This document shows positions 27,723 through 58,748 of a stretch of DNA of 64,000 nucleotides, in pieces. Source of the stretch: Candidatus Saccharimonadota bacterium (GTDB taxonomy: Bacteria; Patescibacteriota; Saccharimonadia; Saccharimonadales; Saccharimonadaceae); assembly GCA_017506895.1 (NCBI GenBank), contig JAFWBV010000001.1, positions 1-64,000 of the forward strand, written 5' to 3'. Position 1 is the stretch's first letter. Each line of letters opens with the position of its first letter. The notes under the pieces were generated by a model. The model saw nothing but the letters and a program-made list of their open reading frames with translations, had not been told where the DNA came from and made no database searches. The position numbers and the translations under genes were made by a program.

Positions 27723-27741
27723 CAGTTTTTTTGTAAAAAAA

Positions 27742-55365: not shown

Positions 55366-55454
55366 AAAATATACCTCCTTAAACGTATTCCTGTCCAATT
55401 TGTTATTTTTTTATGACCTTCTTCTAGGACGACTTCTATGGTAATGCTACTGTC

Positions 55455-55508
55455 ACCCTACATTTAGTGTCTCACTACTATAATACACCACTACATATGG
55501 TATTGCAA
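55455..55508 (-). promoter_or_regulatory. nrdDG promoter with two NrdR-type boxes
   Basis: TTGCAA (55508-55503) and TATTAT (55485-55480) on the minus strand have a 17-bp spacer. Box 1, ATACCATATGTAGTGG (55503-55488), fills the spacer and box 2, ACACTAAATGTAGGGT (55470-55455), lies just past the start site. Both resemble the NrdR consensus ACACTATATATAGTGT and are 33 bp apart, about three helical turns. NrdR itself is not in the window. Confidence 0.75.
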
Positions 55509-55644
55509 GACTTTTTATGCTTATTTTTTAATTATTTCAAAAAAACATGGCAAATCATTCAAATAGTAAAAATTTAAAAGGAAGATGTTCAGGAAAACTT
55601 AACATGCTATAATAGAAGCATGAGTATTTAAGAAAGGAAACTTA

Positions 55645-56457
55645 ATGGAGCAAAATGCAGATACTGGCGTACCAGTAGCGCCAATGGCAGAAAATAAACA
55701 AAAAAATGGAAAATGGTTAAAAATTGTTACTGCGATTGCATGTGTCGTGGCGGTTTGTGGCATTGGGTTTGGCATTTTTGGTATAATTCAAAATACTTCT
55801 AGTAATACAGAGATCGAGAATCTTAAGAATCAGATAGCTGAGCTAGAAAAGCGTACGGTAATTGAGCAAAACATTTCCAAACAAGATGATTTATCGGAAA
55901 AAACAATGGTTGATGATACGGCCAATGAGCAGGCATCATCTGCTCCAACCGGAAACTATTCTTTATTTATAAATAAGTTCAATGATGCAGAAAATCAGCG
56001 CTATGAATTGGTATATATTAGTGGTGGTATGAGGACGGCCTTTAATGATATTTCTTCCAAAGACGATAGTTATTATATTTTAGACACTCAGAAACTTGGT
56101 TCAGCTAATGACTTGAGACAATTTGATTTAGTCTCAGTAATGAAACCTTTGACCGATCAAAAAATTCAAAATGGAATGCCAGAAGTCGCTAAGTACAATG
56201 TCTATTCAAATGATGATAAAATGTATTTATCTCAATGCGAATCTTTCTCAGTAGAGTACATGAATGGGCATGATTATTTAGCTCAATCACTTGGCCTCGA
56301 TTTGAATACTGACATTCCTATTGCCGTAAATTATAGTTGCCATTTTAATAATGGTACGACTCAAAGATTATATCATAGAGCTATTTATAGTTTGAATGCG
56401 GAATCTGGAACCATTAAAGAGTTAGAACAATTTGCGACCTCTGACTTTACAAAATAA
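55645..56457 (+). CDS. Hypothetical membrane-anchored protein
   Basis: 270 residues of no recognised family. A cytosolic N-terminus is followed by one TM helix (about 26-48, IVTAIACVVAVCGIGFGIFG), a short coiled coil (IENLKNQIAELEKR), a linker and an extracellular domain of about 160 residues with YELVYISGG, QFDLVSVMKPL and NYSCHFNNGT. The architecture is like that of the HtrA N-terminus at 60530. A TGCTATAAT box near 55609 and AAAGGAAAC before the ATG support expression. Confidence 0.68.
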   Translation: MEQNADTGVPVAPMAENKQKNGKWLKIVTAIACVVAVCGIGFGIFGIIQNTSSNTEIENLKNQIAELEKRTVIEQNISKQDDLSEKTMVDDTANEQASSAPTGNYSLFINKFNDAENQRYELVYISGGMRTAFNDISSKDDSYYILDTQKLGSANDLRQFDLVSVMKPLTDQKIQNGMPEVAKYNVYSNDDKMYLSQCESFSVEYMNGHDYLAQSLGLDLNTDIPIAVNYSCHFNNGTTQRLYHRAIYSLNAESGTIKELEQFATSDFTK

Positions 56458-56499: not shown

Positions 56500-56506
56500 A
56501 AGCCAA

Positions 56507-56660
56507 ATTGTTTAGGGTATTAACAGACATTTTAACGGGGGTAAAAACCATACTTTTGGCAGTTTTTTTATGTAAAAATGGTCCAAAATTGCACATTATT
56601 GTTGCAAAGTACTTAACAGAAATTTACTACTAAAAAATCGGCCAAAATGCCGAATTATAT
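56507..56660. repeat. Left direct repeat framing the nuclease gene
   Basis: About 150 bp starting ATTGTTTAGGGTATTAACAG that recur at 58416-58565 with mostly single-base changes and one 12-base gap. Inside are a possible CTTTTGG/CCAAAA hairpin and a minus-strand terminator TCGGC/GCCGA with T6 (56632-56653). The remaining 100 bp before the gene (to 56760) hold the GATAAT promoter (56749-56754) and nothing else that I can identify. Confidence 0.9.
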
Positions 56661-56760
56661 ATAATCTGGTGGGGCAGAATTGGACGGGCATTAACAATCT
56701 ATAAAAATATAAACAGGGAGTGCTACTTGAATATTATTAAAAATATGGGATAATATTTAT

Positions 56761-58401
56761 ATGAGAAAATGTACGCCCCGGTCTAATTTAGTTGGGCAAA
56801 GAGCGGGTACGCTCGTTGCTAAGAAATATATAGGAAATAGCCAATGGCGATGTATTTGTGATGTATGCGGAAATGAGGTAATTATAACTACAAACTGGTT
56901 TCATAAACTAGACAGGCTCGGAATGAATGGCTGTAAACATCAATTACCAGTCAATATCGGAGAAGTGTACGGTTTTCTTACCGTCATTAAGCGCGCAGAT
57001 GATTATGTTAAGCCAAAAACTGGTCGGCATGAAAAACAATGGCTTTGCCGATGTGTATGCGGACGAGAAAAAGTTATTTTACAGTCAAATCTAAAAGCCA
57101 ATAAAAGCATGACTTGTGGTTTATGCAGTACTCGGGTCTCTATTCCAGAAAAAGCAATTCTATTTTACTTAAAGAAAATATTTGATGATGTTAAGGAAAA
57201 CTATAGGCCAGTTTTTTTGGACGGCAAAGAAATAGATATCTTTATTCCAGAAATAAAACTAGGAGTTGAGTATGATGGGGGACGATGGCATTCAGAAGTA
57301 GCTAAAGACATCGAAAAAGATAGAAAATGCGAAGAGAATAATGTACGAATAATCAGAATTCGAGAGCCAGATTGCCCACTTCTTGATGGCTCGATTATTA
57401 CCCCTAAGGCTATCATGAACGGGAACCATATGACCGAGCCAATTAAGCAGCTCTTAGGGGTTATCGAGAACGATTATCATATCAAAACGAGTATTAACGT
57501 AAATTGCTGTAGGGACAACGCGGAAATCTGTAAGTTCCTCGTAGATGGCACGGATAGTAAATCTTTAGCAGAGTTATACCCTGACATTGCAAAAGAATGG
57601 GACTATGAGAAAAACTATCCGCTAACTCCGGATAGGGTGGCCGCTCATGCGGGCAAGAAAGCCTATTGGATTTGCCCTAAAGGGCATAGCTATCCAGCAG
57701 AAATTGCATCGAGAACAGGCAAACGTCCGTCTGGGTGCCCGTTTTGCGCAGATTTTGGACCAGGTCTTTTTAAAAATGGGGAATATATTGGCGAGCACTC
57801 CCTTGCAAAAGAGCGGCCAGATATAGCTGCGGAATTCATGGAAGAAAAGAATGGTATCTCAGCTGATAAAGTAGCGGTATCAAGTAATAAGCTAATGTGG
57901 TTCAAGTGTTCAAAATGCGGGCATGAATGGCCGTCAAAGGTAAATAATAGAACTTCATCAAATAATCAAGGTTGTCCAAAATGTGCAAGAGAAAAGCAAG
58001 TAATAACTCGCCTAAAAAGTGACGTCGCCAGCAAAGGAAGCTTATATGAAAAATATCCTGACATATGTAAATATTGGGATACAAAATCAAACGCACTAAC
58101 TCCTAAGGATGTCCATCCTGGATGTAAAATGATTATAAACTGGAAGTGCTCTACATGTGGTCATACTTGGAAGTCAAGCGTTCATAATATGGTTAGATCA
58201 AAGCGGAAGGGGTGCCCTAAATGTATTCGTATAATAGCTCCAAATGCACACGCTGTAATTAATATTGATACCGGAGAAGTGTTTAGTAGCATAGATAGCG
58301 CTGCCAAGTCATGTAATCTAGTGTGTGGCGAAAGGATAGGAAAAGTATGCAAGGGTCGAGCAGACACGGCTGGTGGGTATCATTGGAAATACAAGGATTA
58401 G
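56761..58401 (+). CDS. Homing-nuclease-like protein: Zn modules, PD-(D/E)XK, DUF4379 repeats, NUMOD
   Basis: 546 residues. Two N-terminal zinc modules (WRCICDVCGNEV ... NGCKH, then FLTVI ... WLCRCVCGREKV ... MTCGLC) resemble those of phage AP2/HNH proteins. Residues about 126-205 look like a PD-(D/E)XK nuclease of the Vsr/DUF559 kind: EIDIFIPEIKLGVEYDG, then RWHSE and KDRKC. Three DUF4379 zinc repeats follow (PDIAKEWD ... CPKGH ... GCPFC; PDIAAEF ... CSKCGHEW ... GCPKC; PDICKYWD ... CSTCGHTW ... GCPKC) and a C-terminal NUMOD1-type segment (VFSSIDSAAKSC ... GYHWKY). Framed by long direct repeats, it is likely a selfish or defence nuclease. The GATAAT box lies 6 nt upstream. Confidence 0.82.
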   Translation: MRKCTPRSNLVGQRAGTLVAKKYIGNSQWRCICDVCGNEVIITTNWFHKLDRLGMNGCKHQLPVNIGEVYGFLTVIKRADDYVKPKTGRHEKQWLCRCVCGREKVILQSNLKANKSMTCGLCSTRVSIPEKAILFYLKKIFDDVKENYRPVFLDGKEIDIFIPEIKLGVEYDGGRWHSEVAKDIEKDRKCEENNVRIIRIREPDCPLLDGSIITPKAIMNGNHMTEPIKQLLGVIENDYHIKTSINVNCCRDNAEICKFLVDGTDSKSLAELYPDIAKEWDYEKNYPLTPDRVAAHAGKKAYWICPKGHSYPAEIASRTGKRPSGCPFCADFGPGLFKNGEYIGEHSLAKERPDIAAEFMEEKNGISADKVAVSSNKLMWFKCSKCGHEWPSKVNNRTSSNNQGCPKCAREKQVITRLKSDVASKGSLYEKYPDICKYWDTKSNALTPKDVHPGCKMIINWKCSTCGHTWKSSVHNMVRSKRKGCPKCIRIIAPNAHAVINIDTGEVFSSIDSAAKSCNLVCGERIGKVCKGRADTAGGYHWKYKD

Positions 58402-58415
58402 TTTCCGGGAACCTG

Positions 58416-58565
58416 ATTGTTTAGGGTATTAACAGACATTTTAACGGGGTAAAAACCATATCTTTGGCAGTTTTTTGATGTAAAAATGGTCCAAAATTAC
58501 ATACTATTTTTGCGGGGTACTTAATCACTAAAAAATCGGCAAAAACGCCGAGTTAGACATAATTC
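58416..58565. repeat. Right direct repeat framing the nuclease gene
   Basis: Copy of 56507-56660, beginning 15 nt after the nuclease stop. Its minus-strand terminator (58530-58552: TCGGC/GCCGA with T6) would end the tRNA-Val transcript, so this copy may be the native one and the left copy the duplicate. Confidence 0.9.
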
Positions 58566-58578
58566 CCCATTTGAGAAT

Positions 58579-58663
58579 AAAAGCCGGCAGATTGGTGTTT
58601 TCTTCTTGCGAAGTGCGTCTTATGGACGAGCGAGCAAGAAAAAACGCCGAGATGCCGGCTTTT
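58579..58663. repeat. Long structured hairpin (element C) next to tRNA-Val
   Basis: An 11-bp outer stem AAAAGCCGGCA/TGCCGGCTTTT encloses a second stem GGTGTTTTCTTCTTGC with GCAAGAAAAAACGCC and an apical CGTC-TTATG-GACG hairpin flanked by GTG and AGCGAGC. The apical part resembles that of elements A and B. It lies 9 bp beyond the tRNA-Val 3' end and could be its processing or termination signal. Confidence 0.75.
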
Positions 58664-58671
58664 AAATCAAA

Positions 58672-58748
58672 TGGTGGACCCAGCAGGGCTTGAACCTGCG
58701 ACCTTACGAATGTGAATCGTACGCTCTAGCCAACTGAGCTATGGGTCC
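58672..58748 (-). tRNA. tRNA-Val (CAC)
   Basis: A 77-nt cloverleaf: acceptor GGACCCA/TGGGTCC, D arm GCTC...GAGC, anticodon stem TACGA/TCGTA with loop TTCACAT (anticodon CAC), T arm GCAGG-TTCAAGC-CCTGC, encoded ACCA end. Its promoter shares a palindrome with prfA. Confidence 0.95.

Follow-up and report, generated by a model that had tools for sequence, protein, structure and literature searches.

What are the direct repeats that frame the gene for a 546-aa nuclease in our window (the whole 64,000-nucleotide stretch of Candidatus Saccharimonadota DNA that was analysed), and does the nuclease account for them? The first-pass annotation of this DNA had described a unit that looks mobile, is bounded by repeats, was inserted behind a tRNA gene and is neither an intron nor an intein, and on these points our analysis bears it out: the repeats (56507–56665 and 58416–58565) are 82% identical over ~150 bp (E 1.8e-41), are visible in an ungapped comparison and contain the same core 26-mer, TTAGGGTATTAACAGACATTTTAACG, for which 100 shuffles gave 0 matches, and no gene is interrupted at the nuclease locus. 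Where we differ is in what the repeats belong to. We consider, with a probability of roughly 85%, that two recombinase-less gene cassettes form an array behind tRNA-Val at this locus, that a tyrosine recombinase moves such cassettes in trans, and that the nuclease is cargo.

The array lies behind tRNA-Val(CAC), located by ARAGORN at 58672–58748 on the minus strand, the 3′ end of which, TCCACCA, would be its attachment site (attB); the gene order prfA, tRNA-Val, nrdD is kept in relatives. The tRNA-proximal junction (58565–58671, minus strand) holds a native-looking terminator hairpin, tRNA-Val's own (58578–58664, with arms 58578–58601 and 58641–58664), and a decayed site (..ACACCA/ATCTG..); these ~107 bp keep the inner unit from joining the tRNA directly. 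We made profile models of the type I unit (R1), the type II unit (R2) and the P arm (R3). Cassette 1 (56667–58564, 1898 bp) is composed of a type I unit resembling a P′ arm (58411–58564, minus strand; unit profile positions 7–171, 129 bits) with a degenerate core-proximal end, the nuclease gene (56761–58401, plus strand), which reads toward tRNA-Val, and a closing P arm, GTTAATGCCCGTCCAATTCTGCCCCACCA (56667–56708, minus strand; P-arm profile 37.8 bits; R3 match E 1.2e-10). Cassette 2 opens with a full-length, likewise P′-like type I unit (56502–56672, minus strand; unit profile 168 bits; R1 match E 1.3e-23), which begins with CCACCA followed by GATTATATATAATTCGGC, and carries the gene for a 270-aa membrane-anchored “MEQNADTG” protein (55645–56457, plus strand) that matches 14 cassette-borne proteins (best E 8e-30). 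At the outer end of the array (55399–55600, no strand assigned), judged against the empty loci L145 and L163 and the occupied L134, the P arm is undetectable, apparently through decay, and the native nrdD leader follows.

On its sequence the window is, then, two cassettes in tandem behind tRNA-Val, first the nuclease and then the 270-aa membrane protein, and the array is an old, partly decayed example because its outer P arm is unrecognisable and its inner unit stands ~107 bp off the tRNA. The left repeat, previously taken for a possible duplicated target of the nuclease, is instead the entry end of the next cassette, and the terminator-like hairpin reported for the right repeat is indeed present there but also in the left one. 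Mini copies of 65–110 bp, made of a terminator, a T-arm-like hairpin and a tRNA 3′ end (..CCACCA), are found directly behind tRNA-Val in the window (58578–58671) and at L137, L144, L152, L155, L161, and L163; they could be tRNA ends that were displaced, sites without cargo, or decoys.

On the tRNA strand, the general layout runs from a tRNA ending in CCACCA through a ~160-bp unit and usually one gene of opposite orientation to a 44-bp P arm, again ending in CCACCA, behind which the next unit or the native flank begins. The unit combines a terminator hairpin with direct GTTAA-type arm motifs, which are present in both type I units (starting GATTWTATATAACTCGGC..GCCGATTTTTT) and type II units (starting AACGGGTTATAAAATA), and the P arm has the pattern ..TGTTAATRCCTG...AATT..GCCCCACCA. 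Type I units form two hairpins that fold better than shuffled sequences, one of them terminator-like, and an Rfam search gave nothing but tRNAs above the gathering score. Bar a few degenerate cases, every examined unit is preceded by the 3′ end of a tRNA, by a fragment resembling such an end or by a P arm. Usually CCACCA alone is common to tRNA and cassette, with ~12–20 nt of the tRNA 3′ end shared at L184, L185, and L218; since the first ~14 bp behind CCACCA differ between unit copies, the exact crossover point is not fixed.

At loci chosen for containing units or adjoining tRNA-Val we delimited 105 cassettes (median 1021 bp), 104 of them closed by a P arm, and because of this choice the counts describe cassettes rather than genome-wide occupancy. 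The genes face the tRNA: the longest open reading frame points toward it in 90 cases and away in 14, and for frames of at least 100 aa the ratio is 86 to 12 (p 6e-15). Both unit types are mixed within arrays, the longest of which hold nine cassettes (L248, behind tRNA-Ala) and six (L247). The sister-genus genome with both of these arrays (G377) has 21 P arms, and P-arm matches on its contig 13 (G377:C13:24608–34527) indicate a third array. The occupied tRNAs have nine anticodons (Val-cac, Val-tac, Met-cat, Phe-gaa, Ile-gat, Ile-tat, Leu-caa, Ala-cgc, and Ala-tgc), and 57/58 of them end in CCACCA, compared with 66/104 unoccupied tRNAs nearby (p 6e-8). Complete units stand to incomplete ones as 51:6 at the tRNA-adjacent position and 55:22 at distal positions (p 0.017), a hint that insertion of new cassettes takes place on the tRNA side.

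The genomes searched are drafts, mostly metagenome-assembled. Within the genus, type I units occur in 82/147 genomes and type II units in 63/147, at the 3′ ends of differing tRNA genes, and the sister genus also carries units. Among 295 genomes at the level of the order, 29 match the type I model and 34 match the P-arm model, nearly all of them in two sister genera of one family; since the two ends differ in sequence, their common distribution is independent support for the cassette. Among the further copies of the repeat in the host genome itself, one abuts the 3′ end of tRNA-Met (contig 9) and frames the gene for a 1141-aa protein that, read by eye, is of papain/LRR type. The host is probably a saccharibacterium, since the window matches a named Saccharibacteria contig at 27741–28377 with 79.5% identity over 640 bp. 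Scanning 2.9 million viral contigs by pattern returned 9 stretches, but these score at chance level with the full unit profile, and a viral origin of the units was rejected.

The same cassette can be found in several places. A Nudix cassette (97–99% protein identity) is located behind tRNA-Val, tRNA-Met, and tRNA-Phe in three species and is the last of four in an array of a fourth species, while HNH, deformylase, and hydroxyacid-dehydrogenase cassettes are 96–98% identical between the two genera (g1 and g32). With PrfA as a yardstick, most of these genomes are 69–84% identical to one another, compared with 96–99% for the cargo. Matching cassettes are 89–95% identical in DNA across the cassette, and the similarity mostly stops at the distal CCACCA; where alignments continue past the cassette end, the next element is similar as well, and in one pair (L204/L251) similarity is lost some 30–45 bp short of the end. 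In empty tRNA-Val sites (L145, L163) the nrdD leader comes directly behind the tRNA, and in the occupied L134 the same leader comes behind the closing CCACCA of the cassette; this comparison is clear at the tRNA-Val locus only, because intergenic DNA elsewhere is too diverged between species. Cassette structure, direct CCACCA joints, two unit families, and the same cassette at different tRNAs and in different species and genera are the part of our reading that the sequences themselves show.

The cargo is diverse, with 101 proteins in 70 families. Pfam matches include NUDIX, GNAT, methyltransferases, peptide deformylase, LysE exporter, LD-carboxypeptidase, HAD, serine hydrolase, HNH, AadA_C, and short-chain dehydrogenase, and many of the proteins have no Pfam match. 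The “MEQNADTG” membrane-anchored family is the commonest cargo. Its members share a conserved N-terminus and diverge in the C-terminal part, and cassettes bearing them are also present at L194, L195, L199, L206, L208, L209, L211, L256, L259, L261, and L263. The idea of defence cassettes was rejected, as PADLOC gave scattered single matches on the cargo and no defence system.

How, then, would such cassettes move? When the two ends of a cassette are joined, CCACCA lies in the center, and arm-type motifs that share a single orientation lie near −29, +48, and +140 to +144; the motif has 0 reversed copies at the joint and is rare within cassettes (11 in 93.6 kb). The attP of lambda-type tyrosine integrases carries arm sites, and by analogy the joined ends are laid out as such an attP and not as an integron attC. 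We propose that an excised circle would join P arm, CCACCA, and unit, creating an attP-like site in which a short core is flanked by direct arm-type motifs, and that a tyrosine recombinase acting in trans would recombine this site with a tRNA gene at its CCACCA end. Insertion would leave the tRNA intact and bring a new terminator, and repeated insertion at the same tRNA would push cassettes outward into a stack. The underlying chemistry is probably ordinary tyrosine recombination. For the arrival of the cassette DNA, natural transformation is a candidate: Saccharibacteria with natural competence have been documented (PMC11665869), and we infer that it could be the entry route.

The mover itself would be the conserved core Xer or the integrase of a helper element. 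No recombinase gene was found in the delimited cassettes, which usually have one non-recombinase open reading frame, and PF00589 genes lie elsewhere. Serine recombinases were rejected as the mover since they are absent in several unit-bearing genomes, and Cas1 (PF01867) was found in 1/20 unit-bearing genomes. With no recombinase found in cis, and with serine recombinases absent from a number of unit-bearing genomes and Cas1 from 19/20, the mover should act in trans, as core Xer or as helper integrase. An autonomous parent element was also rejected, because neither units nor P arms rise above background in the neighbourhoods of 20 extra tyrosine recombinases or at 21 core xer loci, the latter having no att-like sequence nearby.

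That the host's core Xer moves the cassettes, in the fashion of dif modules, is possible at a little under even odds. In its favor, it is the sole PF00589 protein in many cassette-rich, near-complete genomes: exactly one PF00589 gene, encoding a conserved ~316-aa protein of core Xer size, was found in each of G280, G276, G250, G140, G088, G085, and G105, and several genomes of this kind are near-complete and rich in cassettes. The absence of serine recombinases from several unit-bearing genomes points the same way. However, arm-type direct repeats are typical of lambda-like integrases rather than of Xer, dif-like symmetry is not demonstrated at the sites, and the protein is also present in relatives without cassettes. 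The assembled contigs of the window's genome (G000, 92% complete) gave no PF00589 match, and neither did G028, G006, and G141, though nearly all relatives have one core Xer; assembly gaps may be the reason.

The integrase of a transient helper, either a phage or a conjugative element, might instead move the cassettes as satellites, for which we would put the chances somewhat short of even. The attP-like arm sites and the sporadic extra tyrosine recombinases in relatives are consistent with such a helper, but the 20 neighbourhoods of those recombinases lack units and P arms above background, and the viral contigs yielded nothing beyond the 9 chance-level matches.

The other explanations fare much worse. 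The repeats might not be mobile at all, but tRNA terminators or REP-like repeats shuffled by homologous recombination between tRNA loci. The units do contain terminator-like hairpins, and their length would permit homologous exchange within arrays, but the same cassette stands behind tRNAs that share little besides CCACCA, across genera, and with similarity mostly ending at the boundary, and we regard this explanation as improbable. Less probable still is that a casposon-like element or a transposase inserts at tRNA ends and leaves CCACCA as its target-site duplication. Casposases insert at tRNA ends, and the cassettes do have an identical hexamer at both ends. Against this, the defining Cas1-type integrase is confined to the one genome in 20 mentioned above, terminal inverted repeats were not seen, and one tRNA of L202 ends in CTACCA while the distal end of its cassette reads CCACCA, so that the cassette must have brought its distal hexamer along (unless the tRNA mutated later).

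We find it very hard to credit the proposal that the nuclease itself drives a selfish element by duplicating its landing site or by cutting copies that lack the insert. The three DUF4379 stretches of the protein are there (DUF4379 E 7.9e-49), and in favor of the proposal it has a homing-endonuclease-like core and repeats on both sides. In the AlphaFold model (pLDDT 80), residues 127–240 are closest to the catalytic domain of I-Bth0305I (3r3p, Z 9.6, 94 residues, rmsd 2.7) and next to Vsr (Z 8.2). Furthermore, there is a weak VSR-type match (MTES_1575, E 0.027), the PHROG matches are phage HNH and homing endonucleases, and E170, D172, and H177 are nearly invariant. The window protein is thus predicted to have the catalytic-domain fold of EDxHD/Vsr-like nucleases, and it would be expected to cleave DNA. 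The NUMOD1 end claimed for it is more doubtful: residues 495–546 match an HNH PHROG (E 0.0056), but no Pfam NUMOD was found and the pLDDT there is <50.

The repeats, however, are not tied to this gene. The first-pass annotation had suggested searching for the repeat elsewhere and had named wide scatter without a link to the gene as evidence against its own idea; this is what we found, with further copies away from the nuclease in the host genome (714,826 bp, 12 contigs), where the nuclease is single-copy, and with copies in many genomes that have no link to a nuclease gene. The same repeats frame ~69 further cargo families, just one other cargo of the set is a DUF4379 nuclease (L134, 31% identical), and no such repeat was found near the closest relatives of the nuclease, in rumen Bacilli/Clostridia (52–61% identity). 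Since the repeats occur without the nuclease and relatives of the nuclease occur without the repeats, a nuclease-driven element is refuted, and the best reading is that the nuclease, with its VSR/I-Bth0305I-like core and DUF4379 repeats, is passenger cargo. It resembles I-Bth0305I/Vsr-like homing endonucleases with DUF4379, which are widespread in rumen bacteria, in its catalytic-domain fold; it differs from them in being one cassette cargo among others, with neither an intron nor an interrupted gene. The second DUF4379 nuclease (31–32% identical) is the cargo of a type II cassette at tRNA-Val in another species (L134, G079). VSR-like nucleases with DUF4379 are widespread in gut and rumen Clostridia, Bacilli, Bacteroidales, and Saccharibacteria metagenome-assembled genomes (loci L001–L080).

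A chromosomal integron or CALIN (attC array) merits next to no credence, in spite of the single-gene cassettes, fixed orientation, tandem arrays, and cassette-typical cargo (Nudix, GNAT, AadA-like proteins, hydrolases), as the arm motif has one orientation, no extra integrase was found in many hosts beyond the core Xer-size protein, and the junction is CCACCA at tRNAs. In an attC, two core sites lie antiparallel to each other and carry R″ and R′ boxes (PMC2727003); the paired inverted boxes are missing here, the GTTAA-type motif having zero reversed copies at the joint. The likeness to integron cassettes nevertheless extends to a mover outside the cassette and to the adaptive look of the cargo (Nudix, GNAT, AadA_C, hydrolases, methyltransferases). 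Unlike in integrons, no IntI was recognised, entry is at tRNA 3′ ends with at least nine anticodons rather than at one attI, and the genes face the entry point.

Among other known systems, dif modules have ~28-bp XerC/D sites of alternating orientation and are mainly plasmid-borne, in contrast to the asymmetric ends of ~160 bp and 44 bp at chromosomal tRNA genes described here. The dif/pdif modules of Acinetobacter plasmids are, however, also small, recombinase-free gene modules, whose movement in trans is attributed to the XerC/D of the host (PMC6449649, PMC12907356). With tRNA islands and satellites (PMC4383910) the cassettes share insertion at the tRNA 3′ end, an intact tRNA, a displaced end that marks the distal border, and attP-like arms; they differ in having no internal integrase, in being mostly <2 kb, and in that one unit family serves many tRNA genes with about CCACCA alone in common. 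Islander found 4 tandems of at least three in 2168 genomes (PMC4383910), compared with arrays of up to nine here. Tycheposons are likewise tRNA-bordered cargo elements tied to tyrosine recombinases, of 4–200 kb and with their own recombinase (PMC10872708), whereas the present cassettes are ~1 kb, recombinase-less, and stacked. Integrons, tRNA islands, dif modules, and casposons each fail, or stay undemonstrated, on at least one defining feature; the closest by behavior are integron cassettes and Acinetobacter dif modules, and the closest by target are tRNA islands.

No description of such tRNA-end cassette arrays was found in the literature searched, which took in few subscription papers or preprints, and as far as found the one-gene cassettes behind tRNA 3′ ends in Saccharibacteria-like bacteria are a previously undescribed family. 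As a system we regard it as new, although it could with good reason be grouped with trans-mobilised gene modules. More tentatively, at rather less than even confidence, it could represent an independent class of cassette capture besides integrons and dif modules, with docking at tRNA CCACCA ends, at least two end types, a chromosomal Xer acting in trans, and a shared gene pool.

The genomes of Saccharibacteria and other Patescibacteria are very small, and their gain of adaptive genes is poorly understood. A tRNA-docked cassette system would account for strain-variable genes, and its cassettes would catalogue an exchangeable gene pool of Nudix proteins, deformylase, exporters, nucleases, aminoglycoside-adenylyltransferase-like proteins, and many unknowns. 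Island finders that require an integrase or ≥2 kb would miss most of these cassettes, as would Islander, which drops candidates <2 kb or without an integrase (PMC4383910). The tRNA docking site would also be a natural entry point for genetic tools. If the more tentative reading is true, these reduced genomes share a horizontally exchanged gene pool by means of interchangeable single-gene cassettes.
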